A DNA stretch of 64,000 nt from Sarcomyxa edulis (taxonomy: Eukaryota > Basidiomycota > Agaricomycetes > Agaricales > Mycenaceae). Positions 1-64,000 of this stretch are shown in pieces; the first letter of the stretch is position 1, and the number at the start of each line of letters is the position of its first letter. Below the pieces are notes generated by a model that did not search any database, was not told the origin of the DNA, and was given only the letters and a program-made list of their open reading frames with translations. The position numbers and the translations under genes were made by a program. Location of the stretch: positions 868,001 through 932,000 of the forward strand of contig QUOL01000009.1 in assembly GCA_009761415.1 (NCBI GenBank), read 5' to 3'.

Positions 1-247
1 ATTGCATCTTCCCATCTTTCTACTTCAATTTTGCTAGCTTTTGCGTGGAGTTAATGTCACGCGACAGACGCGCTTTGGACGCGACAGGACGCGACCGGAA
101 CCTGATATGCTCATTCAAGAGCGGAGCTAGGCAAGACTACAGTCGGCATAAGTACATAATCAGACCCCGTACGTCAACGGAAACAATAAATAACAATCTC
201 CCTTTTGGCCTGATCACCTTCATGTTATAAATTCCTTACACCTTCCT

Positions 248-54247: not shown

Positions 54248-54762
54248 AACCCCCCCACTCTTCAGGCCTCGATGGGATCCCACTGCTCCGGAATCCTGAT
54301 GTCCTGAAGCAAGCGACGCTTCCAGGTCCCTTTGAAGCCGCGTTGAAGGCGGATGCTCGCATCCTGCAGCGCGTTGGGCGGGGGAACGAAAGCTGGGGCG
54401 CGCTTCCCGTGATTATCCGCGTGGAAGAAGTCGGCCCAACCGCTTTCTGAACGCGGCGAGAACTTGTTCTTCTCCCAAGCGTTGTAGATGTTGGTGAAAA
54501 TGCGCTCGCAATCTGCGTTCCATTCACCGCTGAAGCAGTCCAAAGCCGAATGGAGCACGCTCAGAGGAGGCCACATAGTCTGTTCGGCTCCATGAGCACC
54601 GGCGGGTAAGTATCCGATAACCGAGTTCACCCTTAGCTGTAACATTTTGCCTTCCGGTATGGTCGTAGCCAGGCGTTGTTTTGCCTTTATGCTTAACTCT
54701 AGCCAGCCATGGCTAGTGTTAGGACTTTGCCTTCGGTCTTTTACGACTGAAATAAAATGCAA

Positions 54763-54846
54763 CTGGCAAGAATTGAACCCCAGACCTTAGCATAAATTAT
54801 ATAATCTATGTAATAATCTGGCGCTCTTACCAACTGAGCCATAAAG
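54763..54846 (-). other. tRNA-like module, left, copy A
   Basis: On the minus strand TGGCTCAGTTGGTAAGAGCG (54822-54841) is an excellent A-box with a paired D-arm, and GGGTTCAATT (about 54771-54780) is a B-box. The anticodon region is over-long and AT-rich and the acceptor stem does not close, so this is tRNA-derived, not a working tRNA. Confidence 0.7.
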
Positions 54847-54986
54847 AAATATTATTTTGCAACATTTAATGCAATATATACACCATCTACAAACTTATTT
54901 CAATCATTTCTCTATCAAATAAAATACTAAAAATACCAAATAAATTGTAATAAATACTAGGATTAAGCATGAATCTTCCCACACAA

Positions 54987-55022
54987 AGGTTAGGGTAAGC
55001 AGCTTGCTGCTTACCCTAACCT
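54987..55022. repeat. Perfect hairpin, 17-bp arms, 2-nt loop, copy A
   Basis: The arms are 54987-55003 and 55006-55022, with TT between them. Each arm contains a TTAGGG/CCCTAA unit. Confidence 0.9.
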
Positions 55023-55118
55023 GGAATAAAGCATAGTGTAAGGAATCTTATTATGTAATCGTTACACATATATTTAATCATCAAAACCTATGAAAAGCTT
55101 ATATAAGAGGCTAGGATG

Positions 55119-55268
55119 TTAGAGTTAGGGTTAGGTTAAGTTAGGGTTAGAGTTAGGTGTTAGGGTTAGGGGTATATCATCAAAAAAACAAGGTTAGGGT
55201 TAGGAGGTTAGGGTTAGGTAGTTAGGGTTAGGAAGGTTAGGGTTAGTATAGTTAAGTTAGGGTTAGGC
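55119..55268 (+). repeat. Interspersed telomere-type TTAGGG block, copy A
   Basis: At least eight TTAGGGTTAG units are separated by short variable spacers (AGAG, TTAAG, AGGAGG and others). TTAGGG is the telomere repeat of most filamentous fungi. Confidence 0.85.
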
Positions 55269-55360
55269 AAGAGAAAACTCATTTAATATTGAATTTATTG
55301 ATAATAAAAGAATTACCCAAAAGGGTACATAGTTTACTGTATTATAATTGTATTTAAGCT

Positions 55361-55440
55361 TCTATAGCTCAGTTGGTATATTGCCAGATAGTATGATTAT
55401 ATAATCTAACATGGTCACAGGTTCAATTCTTGCTGAAAAC
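55361..55440 (+). other. tRNA-like module, right, copy A
   Basis: TATAGCTCAGTTGGTATA is an A-box and GGTTCAATTC (55420-55429) a B-box, on the plus strand. The D-arm and acceptor stem do not pair fully. It is the inverted partner of the left module. Confidence 0.7.
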
Positions 55441-57871
55441 ATCTTTATTTTGCTTATTAAACATCACGACTGACCTTTGCCTCAGGTCATGGCTGTAGCC
55501 AGGGCCTGGCTAGCGTTTGCGCATTTGACATCGGTACACCATGGCTAGGACCATGGAATTTAGGCTAAATTTCACCTCTAGGGCTCCCGAGTTAAGTTCC
55601 TCCGGCGACATCAGATCCGTGCGAAAGAACAAGAAAGATTCGGAATCGACCCAACCGCGTTGATGTAAGGTAACCTGCACGGATGGCCCTTCCATGAATT
55701 CCTGAACCAAGCGAAGTCCGCCGTATTTGCGAGCGATCCACGCATAAGGACCTCCCAAGCCTATGAGAGCGCGGGCATGAGGTCGACGCAGTATGTCCAG
55801 CAGGTTGAGTTTGTAGCGTGAGTATAGAGCATGGCCGCCACGGCCGTAGACCAGTTCGTGGTCACGGAAATTGACGCCGTAGTAAACGCCCACTAGGAAA
55901 TCTCCCGGACCTACGCCCGGCGGCAAGAAGGACGAGTTGTCCTTAGGGTCTGTGGCAACGAAGAAGGGTAAGCCGTGTTCAACAGCGGTGGTGAGGACCT
56001 TCTGAATATCCGTGACGCTCGCCCAGCAGTTAGCCCAGTAGCGCATGCGGAACTCGCTGTCTGGTTCGACATAGAGAATACCCTTCTCCATCAGCAACGG
56101 ATTCCATTGGAAGTGGGACGGCACCGCGAAAGCTGATCCCGGAGTGACGAGGTTCTTGCCCCATTCGCGCATCTCGCCGACGAATTTGTCGCGTTCCTCA
56201 TAGTTCGGTGGAGGACTTCGCGCTCGCGGAGGCCTGGCGACGGTGCGACGAGGGTAATCCGAGTCGAGGCGATCGGCCAATGACTTCTTAGCTGCCGGCC
56301 GACTCATAGAATCCACCCAACGAGACCCAATGCGCCCATCATGGCTCGCGCTTCGGCTGGACCGCGAAGAAGCTTCCTGATACTCCGAATGCCCTCGACC
56401 GTGACGCTTCTGGGAACGGTCAGCTCGACGGGACCATCCATGACTAGAACGAGGTTCCGCGGACCGGCTGCGACTGCGGCGACTCGAAGTTGCGTCCTCC
56501 ATTTCGACATCGTCCTGGGATTCAGCTGAGTCCGGATCGACGTAGCCCAAGCGAAGGGCAGTCACGGCCTTCTCCCACAAGGAGTCGGACAGCTGCTGCA
56601 GGGAGAGGACTGGGTGAAGGTCGTCGTTAAGGGAGATACCCAACTCTAAAGAGACTTTCTCGCCTGGACGAGGAGCATAACGAGCCTTGTAGAGCTCGCG
56701 TAAGCTAGTGTCGTTCTCCTCGGCCGGAACCGGTAAGGATTCGTCCAAATCCTCCTCCCGCATCGGTCGAAACCTCCAGTACACCACCCATGATTCTGCG
56801 TTGTCGACCACAAGTTTGTAGTGGAATCTCTTGGTGTATGACGAAATAAGGTCCTCGCTGATCACGGGGCGACGTTTCCAAGCGGGGAAGTCGATTACGC
56901 CGTGACGGGGATTTGTCGACTCGTCGATGATGCCCTCACGTCTACGCGGGGAGGGATTCATCTTCCTCCCTAAATAGTCGTACGTGCTGAGACCCGGAAA
57001 AGATTCGAGTAATCCGGGGACGTCGCGGGCCAAAGCCCCTGTTACGAAAGCGCTCGAGGTCATAAATTTGCGATATTCGTCGTACATAACTGGGGAATAG
57101 CGATGGAATCGAGGATCGACGATCTCGGGAGTGTCCCACGGGTAGAAGACCGGTATGTCATGACGCACTAGATGGGCGATATTCACGAACTTCCAGTCAC
57201 GGCAGAGGTCTATCAACACCCCTCTGCGCTTGTAGCCGCGAATGGGGAATTTATTGATCATGTCCACCGTTCGCTTCTCCAGACCACCTTCCCAGTCGTC
57301 TATGGAATGCACCCACCAGGATAAGAAAGCTAGTCCTTCCAGAATACTACGCTTGGTTTGAGCCGCTACGACTTCGGCGTCGACCTCTGAGTAGTGCGCG
57401 CGGGCCAGCGACTGTAAAGGCATCCACTTGGGGATCGGGGATTCCTTCCCGTACGAGGTCCGGTCCCTTATAGCTGAACAGCACGCTACAAGGTCGATGA
57501 GGAGCGACTTAGCTTCCGTCGCCCACGCCTCGGGGATAGTGAAGCGAGTCCCTTTTTTGAGCACATCTGGCATGACCGAGCGGTTCAAATTGAGCAATCC
57601 GCCGCGGTAACCCTCCATCTGAATCTGAATCCAATCCCTCCAGTGACGATCGATATCAGTCCAGTCGGGGTCGTGAGCGAGTTCCATTTCCATTAAGACT
57701 CCCGTTGGACCGGTTGCTAAAGGTCGGTCTCTCGTATACCTGTATTGTTGAGCTTCTAAAGGGATAGCTTGGTTCCAGGCGGGGAAGCCACTCCAATGTT
57801 CACCGTTGATGATGATCATGACCGGCAAGACGGGTTCGCCTCGAGAGTTCGATAAAAAACAGTCCATTGTC

Positions 57872-59759
57872 GATCATCAGGAAAACCCAAAAATTCTACC
57901 TGGTTCTACATAGAACCATATAGAAATCATAGTGTCAGTAGACCTGGTAAAACTTGGCTGATCTATATAGAACGTGTATACCCCCCTTGTCTTCTACAGG
58001 AGTAGCTGTAGATGTCACTCAATCTATGTAGATCCTGGTAGATCCTGGTAGACAACACTCAATCTATGCCAACTTCAGGTAGATGTCACTCAATCTATGC
58101 AGACACCAGTAGACATGTATAGCTGGGGAGTTCTACCGTAGATAAACACAACTCAGATCAAGATTTTCAAAGTGCAGCAAAATAAATATAATATTAAAAT
58201 AAACTGATAATACAAGTGTACACTATGAGATCAAAGGTTCCTGCTCCAAGGTGAAGGGAAGGTGGGGGAACATACAAAGAGGTGGGGAGAGGTGGTAAGA
58301 GGTGAAAAGAGGTAGGGGAAGGTGGAGAAATGTAAAGGGGAGGTGGGGGGAGGTAGAGGAAGGGAAAAAGAGGCAGAAAAAGATGGTGAAAGGTGAAAGG
58401 GAGGTGAGAGAGGTCAAAAAAGGTGTGGGGAGGCATGGGGAGGTAGGGAAAGGTGATAAGAGGTAGGGGAAGGTGAAGAGGGAGGTATGAAGAGATCTAA
58501 AGAGGTGGAAGCAGGTGGAAGATGGTACAAAGAGATGGGGAAGGTGAAAGAAGGTGAAGGCAATATAGGGGAAGGCAAAAAGAGGTGGAGAATGTAGAAA
58601 GAGGTAGAGGGTGATGGAGGGTGGTAGGGGGTGGTAGAGGGTGGTGAAAAAAGTGGTGAAAAGATGGTGATAGATATGCAAAAGATACAACATATCTTCT
58701 TTCCCTGTTCCTGGTTTCTTCCTTCCCATCTCTAAGCTCTCCATCCTCCAGGTTATTGGTAGGATCTAGAAGCAGAATATATCAGCAGAAAGGACACAAA
58801 AAGAAACATATCTACAGCAGCAAAAATGACAGCAAAATTGCCATGTCACCAATTGCTGTGCTCCAGCTTCTCCAAAGAGCGGATTAGTGAGCCAAGAATA
58901 ACCAGGAACACTGGTATTGAGGATGTAGATGATAGAGCAATTAGTGGAAAGAAGAGGGAGGAAGGTGGAAAGAGAAAGAAAAAAGAGGGAGGAAGAAGGG
59001 AGGAAGGAGGGTGATGAGCTGGCAGCCAAGTTCGCTTTCAGAGTGACGTGACACCATCACATGTGCAATGTCACGTCACACAATGAGCGAATTTCTCTAA
59101 GTCCAAAATGTGTTTGTATAAGAGGCTATACCTCAGGTTGATAGAACAAAGATAGTCATGCACATACATGGTCTTGTAGACTATTGGTTAAGTTGTCAGT
59201 TTTCGAAGTCATGTGCTTGTTAAGTGAAGGTCCCGAGTTCAATCCTTGCTGAATGCATTTATTTTCTTCGATGTCCTAGTCATCCGAAATCTGTTTTTTA
59301 CTCTATTTTACATCCTTTTTTAATGGTATGTCAGAGCATCCCAGGGTGTCTGAGGTACTCTGGGAAACTACTTATTCCTAGGGCATCTCAGAAAGCTCTC
59401 AGACAACTCTCAGAGCTTCTCAGAGCTTCTCAGAGTCTCTCAGAGCATTCAGAGCTCTTAAAATACCCTGAGATGCTCTGAGATGCTTTGGGAAGCTTTT
59501 GGTTCTCTCAGAGCATGTGAGAGACAAGTGACTTTTCCTGATGTAGTATCCAGTAGACACTTATAGATATTCCTTTGTGTCAGGTAGAATTCTGCAGACC
59601 CTTGTAGATCTTTATGTATGTCAAGTAGAACCCCATAGAACCTTGTAGACTACATAGTCACACTGTGATCTATATAAGACCTGTAGTACCCAGTAGTCTA
59701 CAGGAGTCTTCCATAGATATGACCCAAACTATATAGACAAAGTGGTTTTCCTGATGATG
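57872..59759. mobile_element. 1.9 kb element with short inverted ends and a tRNA-like segment
   Basis: ATCATCAGGAAAACC near 57873 has its reverse complement near 59758, and GTC lies outside both ends (57869-57871, 59760-59762), a possible 3-bp duplication. The interior has repeats of GTAGATCCTGGTAGA type, a 450-bp purine-rich AGGTGGGGA stretch (58240-58690), GAGCTTCTCA repeats (59400-59510) and a tRNA-like segment. No protein is recognised. The boundaries are less sure than for the other elements. Confidence 0.5.
59169..59250 (+). other. tRNA-like segment inside the 1.9 kb element
   Basis: TAGACTATTGGTTAAG resembles an A-box and GAGTTCAATCC (59235-59245) a B-box. The following TTGCTGAATGCATTTATTTT resembles the sequence after the right module of the 959-bp element, so the two families may be related. 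A full tRNA fold is not evident. Confidence 0.45.
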
Positions 59760-60156: not shown

Positions 60157-61879
60157 TCAGCGTCTAGCTTGCGCCAGACCCTTGTAGTAGCGTTGAACTG
60201 CCTGAGGAGCGTTTTTGACATTGATTTCTGGCTCCCAGGTGTCGAATTGGGGTCCGAAACCTTCCCAGCGCACCAGGTACATCACTTTGTTCTTCTTCTT
60301 GTCGAAACGATGGCCCACGATTTTCTCGACGTCATACTCGGGTTCCTCGGGTTTGTGATTGCGAGTCTCGGGAAGAACTACTCTCTGACCGAATTCGGCT
60401 GGCGATTCCACGTACACCTTCAAATGTTCCACGTTGATGACCGGTGAGCCTGGATATTTATTACTCATCTTCAACCGGTAGACCTTCGGGTTGACTCTTT
60501 CCAGCACTTCAAACGGGCCTATCCATCTCTGACCGAGTTTCTTCCCTTCGCCTTTCGACTCCGCCCATTCCAGGGAATGTGGATTCACCAGGACTCGCGA
60601 GCCTTCAGGGAATACCGGGGCCGGTCGACGTCCTCTATTGTACGTTCTGGCTTGATCGTCTTGTGCCTTGGCTATCGCTTGTCTGGCATTATCTCGGTGC
60701 ATATTCAAGGAGCGAACAAACTCGACGGCATCCTCGTCCATCGATCCTAAACGTGGCATGTCTGTGAGCCTCGGGTTGAGAAAGTCGGAGGGGCTTCTTG
60801 GCTCGAAACCGTACAGAAGGAAGTACGGAGTGGCACCCGTGGAACCATGAATGGCGCTGTTGTAGGCGAACTCCAATAGGTGCAACCACTCCGACCATTC
60901 TTCCTTGTCCTGTGCTACGTACGCCCTCAGCATGATACCGAGTTGACGATTCACGATCTCGGTTTGACCATCGTGTTGCGGGTGGTGAGCGCTTGATAAC
61001 GACATCTTGGTTTTTAGGTACTTAGCGGTCGCCCTCCAGAATTTAGACGTCCATCTTGGATCGCGGTCTGTCACAATGCTCTCGGGCAACCCATATCGAC
61101 AGATGACATTCTTTGTGAATAAAAAGGCGAATTCTTCAGCTGTAACCGCCGTCGTCGTGGGTATGAATTGCGCGTGCTTCGAAAGACGGTCCACCACCAC
61201 ATAGACAGCGTTATAGCCGTTCGACATTGGTAAGTTGACCACAAAATCCATGGAGACTGACTCGTAAGGTCGACTAGGTATGGGGTTAGGGATGAGGTAG
61301 CCGTAACGGTTGAAGTTCGAAGGCTTGGTCTTTTGACAGACGTCGCAGGATTTGCAGAACTTCAGAACATCTACCTTCATTCTTTTCCAGTAGAATTTTT
61401 GGCTAATCTTCCCATACAGTTTCTCCGGTCCACCATGCGCGGTTTCCATAGGGCCTTCGTGTATGTCCTTCAGAATCATGGTCTGGAGACTCCTGGGCAC
61501 ACATAGTCTTGGCTGATAGTCTGCGTTCGAGAAGAACAATAATCCGTCCTCGTCCTTGAAAAAGCGAGCCCCCGAGATCCAATGGTCTGGAGAAGAACTC
61601 CTCTTTTCCCATATCACCCTAAAGGCGGGATCTGCAGCGTAGCCTTTCCGAAATTCGTCTTTGAGCTTTGGGTCCATGGCAACATGCAGATTCGGCGGAG
61701 GGTTAGTCGCGGCCCAATACTCGTCTTCTGGCGTGGTTCCCGTAACTTCGCCGCGTTCGGAGAAAGAGTCCTGAGGTTGATTGTCCTGATCTGTCCCCCC
61801 CCCAGCCTCGGGAGTCGCTCCTGGAGACGCTTGGTGCGTCTGGCTTCGAGTCACAGCCCAGACGGACCGGCCTCCTACA
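60157..61879 (-). pseudogene. Ty3/gypsy integrase with chromodomain (3' part of pol)
   Basis: This is the integrase half of a gypsy polyprotein. The zinc-binding HHCC part is marked by HEGPMETAHGGPEKLYGKI and CKSCDVCQKTK. The catalytic core has VSMDFVVNLPMSNGYNAVYV, IVTDRDPRWTSKFW and HPQHDGQTEIVNRQLG, giving the D, D and E of the DDE triad. GPFEVLERVNPKVYRLKM is the C-terminal GPF/Y-type module. A chromodomain follows (YDVEKIVGHRFDKKKNK, YLVRWEGFGPQFDTWEPE), as in chromoviruses. The frame has no own ATG; it is the continuation of the RT/RNase H frame interrupted by element copy B. No internal stop is seen. Confidence 0.9.
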
Positions 61880-62838
61880 CACCCTTAGCTGTAACATTTT
61901 GCCTTCCGGTATGGTCGTAGCCAGGCGTTGTTTTGCCTTTATGCTTAACTCTAGCCAGCCATGGCTAGTGTTAGGACTTTGCCTTCGGTCTTTTACGACT
62001 GAAATAAAATGCAACTGGCAAGAATTGAACCCCAGACCTTAGCATAAATTATATAATCTATGTAATAATCTGGCGCTCTTACCAACTGAGCCATAAAGAA
62101 ATATTATTTTGCAACATTTAATGCAATATATACACCATCTACAAACTTATTTCAATCATTTCTCTATCAAATAAAATACTAAAAATACCAAATAAATTGT
62201 AATAAATACTAGGATTAAGCATGAATCTTCCCACACAAAGGTTAGGGTAAGCAGCTTGCTGCTTACCCTAACCTGGAATAAAGCATAGTGTAAGGAATCT
62301 TATTATGTAATCGTTACACATATATTTAATCATCAAAACCTATGAAAAGCTTATATAAGAGGCTAGGATGTTAGAGTTAGGGTTAGGTTAAGTTAGGGTT
62401 AGAGTTAGGTGTTAGGGTTAGGGGTATATCATCAAAAAAACAAGGTTAGGGTTAGGAGGTTAGGGTTAGGTAGTTAGGGTTAGGAAGGTTAGGGTTAGTA
62501 TAGTTAAGTTAGGGTTAGGCAAGAGAAAACTCATTTAATATTGAATTTATTGATAATAAAAGAATTACCCAAAAGGGTACATAGTTTACTGTATTATAAT
62601 TGTATTTAAGCTTCTATAGCTCAGTTGGTATATTGCCAGATAGTATGATTATATAATCTAACATGGTCACAGGTTCAATTCTTGCTGAAAACATCTTTAT
62701 TTTGCTTATTAAACATCACGACTGACCTTTGCCTCAGGTCATGGCTGTAGCCAGGGCCTGGCTAGCGTTTGCGCATTTGACATCGGTACACCATGGCTAG
62801 GACCATGGAATTTAGGCTAAATTTCACCTCTAGGGCTC
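61880..62838. mobile_element. 959-bp tRNA-like/telomere-motif element, copy B, inside gypsy pol
   Basis: Same length and apparently identical to copy A, offset by 7252 bp. The target duplication is TCCTACA (61873-61879 and 62839-62845). It carries the same modules: left tRNA-like (62015-62098, minus), hairpin (62239-62274), TTAGGG block (about 62371-62520) and right tRNA-like (62613-62692, plus). It splits the gypsy pol between the RNase H and integrase domains. Confidence 0.88.
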
Positions 62839-64000
62839 TCCTACAACGCAATCCTCCAGATCCCACGCAACAAAAGTGGCTCGTCGAGCCGGCCCTTGCG
62901 AATAAGAAGGCTCGAGCGGAGCTAACGAGGCAGAATCCGTTATGATGGGAACTTCGAAGTCCACGCCGGGAGACGTATGTATCGGAGGACCTCGAGGCAA
63001 ACGCGAAAGCGGATCAACGTTCGAATGGGTCCGCCCAGGGCGATGAACGATTTCCAAATCGGGGAAGGCCGAAAAGACCACGCCCCAGGCGGCGAGCCGA
63101 CGATTGGCATTTTCGTAGGTACGAGCCCACTGGAGAGCTGAATGGTCCGTCACCAAAATGACCTTCTCGCCTTCAATAAAAGGCAGGAACTTTACCAGGC
63201 CTTCCTTCGCCCCCAAAGCTTCCCGCTCCGTCGTGGAATAACGCGTTTCCGCCCCTTTGAACGTGCGAGACCAATACGCTATCACCCGCTCGACTTCGAC
63301 AATAGAATCTTCGAAGGTGGATCCCCACGCTGCTGCGGGGTGGCTGTCCACTATCTTCGAGCTCAGGGACACCGTCAACTTGGGAGGAGGCTGACCTGAG
63401 TCATAGGCTTTCTTTAGCTTCGCGTAAGCTCGAGTACCCTTCAAATCCCGGATCGCTATGGGTTGGATCTGTTGGAGCGCACATCCCAGGGCCTCGTCGG
63501 AGGCGTCCGTATAGAGACGGTAGGGCGAACCTTCCTTAGGATGTCCCAGGACCGGAGCCACTCGGAGAGCGTCTTTGACCGCCTTAAACGCGAACTCCTG
63601 CTCGGCGCCCCAGAACCACTTGGTCCCTTGTCGCAACAGCTGAAAAAGCGGGGAGCAAACGTCGGCGTAGAAGGGTATGAACGTCGAAAAGTAAACCGCC
63701 ATCCCTAAAAACGTCTGAAGCTGGGACACCTTTGACGGTCGTTCCAGCTCCAGTATGGCTCGAACCTTTTCCAAGTGCGTCGACAATCCCAAGCGAGACA
63801 CCTTATGACCCAAGAGCAGGATGGATGAATAGAACAGATGGCACTTGGTAGGGGATAATGTGATACCGGCACCTTCTATGGCTGCGAGGACTTTGTCCAG
63901 ATGAACGATGTGCTCTTCGTAGGATTTCGAATAGATCACAATATCGTCTATGTAGACCAAACAGAAAATCCACAAGTAAGGAGCAAGCACAGTCTGCATG
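62839..64000 (-). pseudogene. Ty3/gypsy reverse transcriptase (C-terminal part) and RNase H, partial
   Basis: The frame runs off the window edge, so the N-terminal half of RT, protease and gag are not seen. LVYIDDIVIYSKSYEEHI holds the YIDD catalytic box. LGHKVSRLGLS, LQTFLGMAVYFSTFIPFY and LRVAPVLGHPKEGSPYRLYT mark the thumb and connection. The RNase H part has YTDASDEALGCALQQ, YSTTEREALGAKEGLVKFLP and VILVTDHSALQWA, then the RPGRTHSNVDPLSR end. An unusual Pro/Ser-rich insert separates the first RNase H Asp motif from the Glu motif. The frame ends a few codons inside element copy B. Without that element it would continue into the integrase. Confidence 0.92.

Follow-up and report, generated by a model that had tools for sequence, protein, structure and literature searches.

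A probable non-autonomous KDZ transposon with a palindrome, a TTAGGG block and paired Pol III-type units in Sarcomyxa edulis

The 64,000-nucleotide stretch of the Sarcomyxa edulis genome analysed here (the window; assembly GCA_009761415.1, contig QUOL01000009.1, positions 868,001 to 932,000) contains two copies, W1 and W2, of a 959-bp element that is probably a non-autonomous DNA transposon of the Kyakuja-Dileera-Zisupton (KDZ) superfamily. The assignment draws on an interior common to several small elements, on the close match between the ends of one of these (the C21 copy) and those of a large KDZ element, on a further KDZ element (on C39) with extreme ends of the 959 type, and on 7-bp target duplications. 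A preliminary description made from the letters of the window had called the element one of unrecognised type, which no longer applies, since the ends of relatives that have its interior are those of elements carrying KDZ transposase matches. KDZ elements themselves are already known; what would be new is a non-autonomous member carrying a palindrome, a TTAGGG block and units of RNA polymerase III (Pol III) type.

Copies of the element in the window and the genome

Base-by-base alignment of W1 and W2 gave identity at every one of the 959 positions, as first described, and the 7-bp duplications proposed for the two copies, CCGAGTT and TCCTACA, are both exact. Their contexts do differ: the right 300-bp flanks of W1 and W2 aligned at chance level (score reached by 186/200 shuffles) and the left ones slightly above it (9/200). 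With no recognisable likeness between their flanks, the two copies are unlikely to stem from a segmental duplication. A second copy of the W2 flanks, the pair searched as a possible empty site, was not found. The longest ATG-started frame lying wholly inside W1 has 43 aa and is the only one of at least 40 aa, which agrees with the reported lack of coding capacity, there being no sizeable gene. The long imperfect inverted ends that had also been reported turned out to be weaker than claimed: comparison of the outer 125-135 bp revealed no long terminal inverted repeat (TIR), the best inverted match being 19/22 columns about 67 bp in, and the long inverted similarity of the element is mainly that of its pair of tRNA-like modules.

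The genome (35.6 Mb, 40 contigs) was searched with the 959-bp sequence and the best 40 of 177 candidates were scored, so the copy numbers given here are lower bounds. Relatives are named by contig and, where needed, position, and are grouped into lineages A (the 959 type), B (C5-90k) and C (C12, C13, C21, C36 and C5-56.6k). A third 959-type copy, on C1, is about 98% identical by aligned bases (17 differences in 935 aligned bases, plus 2 gaps); the copy (C1:3494365-3501493) is split near one end by an insert of about 6.1 kb, which is of long terminal repeat (LTR) type by its repeats alone (long direct terminal repeats and a 5-bp duplication, TAAAT). Lineage B consists of one copy, on C5 at 90 kb, and lineage C of five, namely C12, C13, C21, C36 and one at 56.6 kb on C5 that lacks the palindrome. 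In the C12 copy (C12:538078-544607) about 5.5 kb of other DNA interrupts the left Pol III-type unit, and the outer 7-bp duplication TCGTAAC is intact despite the split. A 592-bp palindrome-less derivative of the 959 type is present in six copies, which represent one insertion duplicated together with its flanks. These copies lie in near-identical duplicated stretches (C35, C33, C32, C19, C3 and C1:4.117M), of which three belong to small contigs and the other three are close to contig ends, and at one of the six sites a further tRNA-like module stands directly beside the derivative. No tandem array was seen among the matches listed.

Exact 7-bp duplications were found in 7/10 small insertion events (W1 CCGAGTT, W2 TCCTACA, C21 GATATTT, C13 CACGACA, C12 TCGTAAC, C5-90k GGTCTAA and the 592-bp form CCCACCT), and with the C1 copy, where 6/7 positions agree (TATCCAG/TATCCAA), 8/10 insertions have their duplication in full or nearly. 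For the C21 copy an empty site was identified at C40:1122963-1123562, with 98% identity over 600 bp across the junction and a single GATATTT. The identity of W1 and W2, the duplications, the dispersed relatives and this empty site at a relative together bear out the proposed recent mobility.

Element ends in the family read 5'-CA(C)...CTC-3', with CTT in the shortened derivative. A query covering positions 54628-54770 matched only the three 959-type copies (3/3 candidates), and the first 13 bp of the 959-bp element are common to the C5-90k lineage. Words like its GAG-side end occur at C34:51136-51155 and C38:1281385-1281404 and could mark further members, although the word list as a whole yielded no more hits than its control (42 vs 65).

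Relationship to large KDZ elements and other known systems

The end of the C13 copy recurs in the genome as five inverted pairs, 11-12 kb apart, with 79-88% identity over 80-100 bp. All five large elements delimited in this way (5/5) have KDZ transposase matches inside and exact 7-bp duplications outside, and when a 13-kb element on C39 is included such duplications were found at 6/6 of the large KDZ elements examined. In one 11-kb element, Pfam family PF18758 was matched in two pieces (E 9.5e-43 and 1.3e-20). The C21 copy and an 11,106-bp KDZ element agree at 96/100 and 95/100 terminal bases, and small and large elements alike end asymmetrically, in CACTAGTG... and GAGTCATG... (or, for some of the small copies, CATTAATG...). 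The TIR of lineage C is about 97 bp long, with 92/97 columns matching in the C13 copy. The agreement of the C21 ends with those of an 11-kb element containing PF18758 places the lineage C relatives in the KDZ superfamily. A candidate autonomous relative with the same ends is available for lineage C, in the form of the 11-kb KDZ element, and not for the full-length ends of the 959 type.

For the 959-bp element itself we infer a KDZ partner from the C39 element. This 13,013-bp stretch (C39:647585-660597) starts with CACCCGTAGCTGTAACAG, where the 959-bp element has CACCCTTAGCTGTAACAT, so that the first 13 bp differ by 1 mismatch, and it ends in GGCTC like the 959-bp element; it is flanked by the duplication ATAGATA and has KDZ matches inside, the stretch having been read in part. 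What led us to accept it as having extreme ends of the 959 type was the combination of a duplication, a second end and a KDZ match. Exact 13-mer matches to the 959 end were also seen at C14:389026 and C23:227632 (about 400 bp viewed at each).

KDZ elements look recently active in this genome: of 93 KDZ-matching pieces listed, several fall into sets that have the same score and contain long open frames. Several protein relatives of the KDZ protein carry PF18803/PF18802, and its named relatives are from species that we take to be Agaricomycetes. Among six open reading frame (ORF) pieces scanned of the 11-kb element there was neither a Tet_JBP nor a hAT match, and no CxC1 domain was shown among the scanned pieces.

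The length of the duplications might also suggest membership of a different superfamily that makes duplications of 7 bp, for instance hAT7 or Dada, the latter known for duplications of 6-7 bp. The hAT7 elements of Puccinia do have 7-bp duplications (PMC12730594, excerpt), and Dada is tied to small RNA genes (PMC3706591 and PMC8869645, excerpts). We nevertheless regard either as very unlikely, given that the ends of relatives having this interior recur in carriers of KDZ matches and that the scanned pieces of one large element gave no hAT match. As to Dada, W2 lies in a Ty3/Gypsy pol region and W1 in a long frame with no Pfam match, and ARAGORN found no tRNA gene in the window; the other insertion sites were checked for RNA genes only by ARAGORN and Rfam scans.

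Miniature inverted-repeat transposable elements (MITEs) are short, non-coding and mobilised in trans, and non-autonomous transposons are often stripped-down versions of their parents. The elements described here are alike in being short, non-coding and, as predicted, trans-mobilised. They differ in their interior: neither TTAGGG or CCCTAA nor the tested form of the B-box word was found in the 11-kb element, which suggests that the interior of the small elements is a separate cassette and not the result of a simple internal deletion. Telomere repeats stand at the element ends in the telomere-bearing elements (TBE) of Oxytricha, a ciliate, whereas here they are internal and accompanied by host junction sequence. 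The TBE, a DNA transposon of Tc1/mariner type, is named for these repeats (PMC12242761, excerpt).

Within the KDZ superfamily, Kyakuja-1_LB and Kyakuja-2_LB of Laccaria bicolor have 7-bp duplications, CA..TG ends, no TIRs, and TET/JBP (PMC12730594, excerpt). Shared with these are the KDZ transposase, the 7-bp duplications, the 5'-CA terminus and the occurrence in Agaricomycetes; since a 7-bp duplication is published for Kyakuja and a KDZ transposase is matched here, duplication length and transposase agree and the CA..TG ends do not. The elements are placed in KDZ by Pfam alone, and the likeness to Kyakuja is one of superfamily level. In contrast to the published TET/JBP, only a weak Tet_JBP match below threshold was obtained, in the 13-kb C39 element (E 3.8e-4, 20.2 bits vs a cut-off of 34.9). 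A non-autonomous Kyakuja form with cargo of the present kind does not appear in the excerpted literature account (PMC12730594). Zisupton, of the same superfamily, has 8-bp duplications (PMC12730594, excerpt), as against 7 bp here. KDZ1, KDZ2 and KDZ3 of Cryptococcus neoformans, of approx. 9-11 kb, with long TIRs, a CxC1 domain and 8-bp or 4-8-bp duplications (PMC12810828, excerpt), resemble the large elements in transposase, size and long TIRs and differ in duplication length and, as far as the scanned pieces show, in CxC1, though several relatives of the KDZ protein do carry PF18803/PF18802. The same source, as excerpted, contrasts C. neoformans with organisms whose shortened non-autonomous elements are frequently mobile (PMC12810828).

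Several observations weigh against the assignment to KDZ. Judged by eye, the link between the 959-bp and the 13-kb element comprises 16/18 terminal bases at one end and about 13/18 at the other, and the 13-mer search that led to the C39 element was not richer than its control (24 vs 41). With a 143-bp query from the CAC side, a KDZ element with a long 959-type terminal sequence was not found in the assembly, and a second candidate, at C4:592016, had no matching duplication or second end in the 2.4 kb viewed. The KDZ frames are broken by stops between the matched pieces, which may be introns. The C36 (593k) and C5-56.6k copies have no target duplications (2/10 insertions). Finally, Kyakuja of L. 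bicolor reportedly ends in TG and has no TIRs, whereas the elements described here end in TC and those of lineage C do have TIRs.

A shared interior cassette

One member of each lineage (W1 for A, C5-90k for B and C13 for C) was compared piece by piece, using dinucleotide shuffles. For the terminal regions, the A-C left score was reached by 11/300 shuffles, the A-B left score by 6/300 (here the first 13 bp are common) and the A-B right score by 1/300, and the remaining three comparisons were at chance. In the interior, the palindrome was 34/34 or 32/34 identical across the three lineages, the TTAGGG block gave z-scores of 10-15, the left modules 5-8, and the right modules 5-9 for A-C and A-B. 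The values for the repeat block are inflated because both partners are TTAGGG-rich, and the shuffles of this comparison keep dinucleotides and not the TTAGGG unit. On the whole the interiors gave far better alignments than the ends; exceptions that speak against this reading are the right module of B-C, which does not align (z -0.5), the stretch after the palindrome, which is unaligned (A-C z -0.5, A-B z 1.9), and the stretch before it, which aligns weakly (A-C z 2.4, A-B z 2.9).

Read from the CA to the CTC end, all three lineages have their parts in one order and one direction, and the comparison establishes the interior, as far as sequence can, as one homologous cassette in the lineages compared, consisting of an outward Pol III-type unit, a perfect palindrome, the TTAGGG block and a second outward Pol III-type unit. 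This interior seems more alike than its carriers, as the candidate transposases of lineages A and C, in aligned stretches of 78 and 135 residues, show 42-44% identity.

The palindrome pattern, searched with four positions free and 3 mismatches allowed, was found at 8 genome sites, all with 0 mismatches outside the four free positions and none with 1-3 (reversed-pattern control 0); it had no match in IMG/VR or GTDB genomes. As a DNA hairpin, the W1 palindrome is predicted to have -17.5 kcal/mol (z -5.8). The C5-90k palindrome carries a paired change (C to T and G to A), for which either selection or correction of the palindrome at replication could be responsible, and the C12 palindrome has AA in the middle instead of TT. 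In two derivatives (C5-56.6k and the 592-bp form) the palindrome has been cleanly lost.

The persistence of these two derivatives is what would be expected if the interior of a KDZ non-autonomous element were passive cargo, that is, a captured subtelomeric block with tRNA-like pieces, kept by descent. The 592-bp form is also without most of the TTAGGG block and the left A box, and the block is recognisable as host subtelomeric DNA (see below). Passive cargo is possible, if somewhat short of an even chance in our estimate: the palindrome has stayed perfect across lineages with hardly alignable terminal regions and candidate transposases of 42-44% identity, 17/17 B boxes keep their terminator spacing, and of the two palindrome-less derivatives one is a single insertion without duplications and the other has been copied only by segmental duplication.

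Pol III-type units

Pol III-type units were scored with thresholds of 6/8 for the A box and 9/10 for the B box, using general consensus sequences. Pairs of A and B boxes on both strands were found in 7/10 sequences scored (W1, C1, C21, C13, C36 and two 592-bp forms; in the latter the left A-box match is poor and the left unit is not counted), a pair on one strand in C5-56.6k and the partial C12 piece, and none on either strand in C5-90k. Dinucleotide shuffles of W1 gave pairs on both strands in 0/2000 cases and at least one pair on some strand in 61/2000; over W1, C21, C13 and C5-90k, with 2000 shuffles each, the corresponding counts were 0 and 39-61. A run of four or more T follows 17/17 B-box words in nine elements at +11 to +17, a range set after seeing the first module comparison, with a chance of 3-6.5% per position; the 17 words are not independent and represent about six module lineages, W2 and five 592-bp copies having been left out as duplicates. 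The spacing from B box to terminator is as in a tRNA gene. The A boxes were taken from the threshold scoring, a separate A-box expression having missed the 959 lineage. In the window, four B-box-like words have the terminator spacing, all of them in W1/W2, and three others do not.

The tRNA-like modules of the preliminary description thus hold up as A-box/B-box pairs on both strands and not as tRNA calls. ARAGORN with default, bacterial settings called no tRNA in W1, W2 or the window, Rfam with permissive filters gave no RNA family in the C1, C21, C5-90k and C13 loci, and the many ARAGORN calls at low threshold were mostly implausible, for which reasons the modules are not called tRNAs here. 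Low-threshold calls at W1 731-814 and C1 746-829 lie on the right unit. Functional tRNA genes were considered and rejected, with no cloverleaf from ARAGORN default or Rfam.

Short interspersed nuclear elements (SINEs) are retroposed and have a single 5' Pol III head and variable-length duplications. The A and B boxes and Pol III-type terminators would suit a SINE-like retroelement with tRNA heads, an explanation that is hardly credible in view of the fixed 7-bp duplications, defined ends, two outward heads and full-length copies, and no separate SINE with these heads was present among the 76 matches listed (best 40 of 177 candidates).

The TTAGGG block and the host telomere junction

W1 contains 10 TTAGGG, and the telomere-type motifs noted at the outset are therefore real. 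The block of the elements starts with CTAGGATGTTAG, and this word followed by TTAGGGTTAG occurs at 17 genome sites, 8 in elements and 9 elsewhere (reversed-pattern control 0). The nine non-element junction words all lie at most approx. 61 kb from a contig end, and two of them (C23:111-137 and C39:112-138) mark the very beginning of the terminal telomere array. At C38:50146-50252, 50 kb from the contig start, two junction words lie 80 bp apart. Two subtelomeric blocks also have the A-rich, ATCAT-containing spacer of the elements, with z-scores of 3.8-6.0 for W1 and 6-7.7 for lineage C in comparisons whose shuffles keep single bases only. The claim of homology for the block rests on the common CTAGGATGTTAG word and the spacer, by which the block is apparently host telomere-junction DNA, or else the product of a reverse transfer from element to subtelomere.

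Of 12 contig ends viewed, 2 have the exact junction, 2 a variant (C15 end and C37 start; this variant is also present in a C38 subtelomeric block) and 8 other sequence. That the C23 and C39 start telomere arrays begin at the same CTAGGATGTTAG-TTAGGG junction might mean that palindrome and block act in DNA maintenance, as a telomere seed, a replication or recombination site or in chromosome-end healing, and the perfect hairpin and the G-rich strand, whose direction with respect to the ends is constant across the three lineages, would fit such a role. We consider it unlikely, as the eight palindrome-bearing elements all lie at least approx. 89 kb from a contig end (0/8 closer), most of the contig ends viewed lack the exact junction, and the telomeres could have grown on the host's own subtelomeric block.

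Features in the window

The coordinates of both copies are collected in Table 1. W2 is neighboured by an integrase/chromodomain frame (60157-61884) and a reverse transcriptase (RT)/RNase H frame (62830-63999). W1 truncates a long frame (window 55510-57873) of which 762 aa lie outside the element; the frame had no Pfam match, and two relatives found in a protein set (best 7990 candidates scored) carry PF28437.

Table 1 Features of the two 959-bp copies, in window positions
Feature	Position	Strand	Remarks
W1, 959-bp non-autonomous element copy (probable)	54628..55586	+	CAC end left, GGCTC end right; 5'-CACCCTTAGCTGT...TAGGGCTC-3'
W1 target duplication CCGAGTT, left	54621..54627	.	exact 7 bp
W1 target duplication CCGAGTT, right	55587..55593	.	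exact 7 bp
W1 CAC-side terminal and subterminal region	54628..54753	+	putative transposase recognition region
W1 left Pol III-type unit, outward-facing	54754..54841	-	A box TGGCTCAGTTGG, B box GGTTCAATTCT, then TTTT
W1 34-bp palindrome	54988..55021	.	GGTTAGGGTAAGCAGC-TT-GCTGCTTACCCTAACC
W1 TTAGGG block	55111..55269	+	starts CTAGGATGTTAG; homologous to host subtelomeric/telomere-junction block
W1 right Pol III-type unit, outward-facing	55365..55451	+	A box TAGCTCAGTTGG, B box GGTTCAATTCT, then TTTT
W1 GGCTC-side subterminal and terminal region	55452..55586	+	word GAGCCCTAG (read inwards) common to C1 and C5-90k copies
W2, 959-bp element copy	61880..62838	+	identical to W1; inside Ty3/Gypsy-type pol region
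W2 target duplication TCCTACA, left	61873..61879	.	exact 7 bp
W2 target duplication TCCTACA, right	62839..62845	.	exact 7 bp
W2 left Pol III-type unit	62006..62093	-	counterpart of W1 unit
W2 34-bp palindrome	62240..62273	.	counterpart of W1 palindrome
W2 TTAGGG block	62363..62521	+	counterpart of W1 block
W2 right Pol III-type unit	62617..62703	+	counterpart of W1 unit

Possible function and significance

In the mechanism we propose, a KDZ transposase supplied in trans would cut out the small element and insert it with a 7-bp staggered cut. The cassette might, tentatively, act as a portable chromatin boundary, a role to which we give less than an even chance, about the same as to its main rival, passive cargo, and for which we argue by analogy. 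In that case the element would be kept open, and in this way visible to the transposase, by TFIIIC/TFIIIB on the two units, which resemble tRNA-gene DNA (tDNA), and by a protein that binds the TTAGGG repeats of the block; the palindrome would be a dimer-binding or hairpin site. A tRNA-type unit separates the cassette core from either end, and tDNA insulators are known. Yeast STAR (subtelomeric anti-silencing region) elements are not mobile. These elements and their Tbf1 sites, which likewise comprise subtelomeric TTAGGG blocks (PMC6410037, excerpt), are compared here solely with regard to how the cassette is likely to act; in yeast, silencing is counteracted by TTAGGG arrays to which Tbf1 is bound, and Tbf1 is also able to insulate (PMC6410037, excerpt).

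No description of such cargo in a transposon was found in the open-licence literature searched, and as far as that search reaches, the earlier statement that no described fungal family has this set of parts can stand. To our knowledge, no other transposon has such cargo.

A bolder reading, which we think improbable, is that KDZ transposons of this fungus have domesticated the chromosome end. They would carry a working telomere-junction or boundary cassette and exchange it between KDZ lineages with different ends, sequence would pass both ways between cassettes and subtelomeres, some present telomeres (such as the C23 and C39 starts) would have grown on seed sequence carried by transposons or derived from them, and the palindrome would be read by a telomere or transposon protein.

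Small elements of at least two KDZ lineages appear to keep one elaborate interior, which points either to lineages having traded their cargo or to a cargo that is under selection. The 959-type elements would offer short substrates for a biochemical assay of KDZ transposase. If the proposed relationships are true, they would also provide a direct system in which to test whether transposons remain active by means of host boundary or telomere DNA, and where the interstitial telomere repeats of fungi originate.

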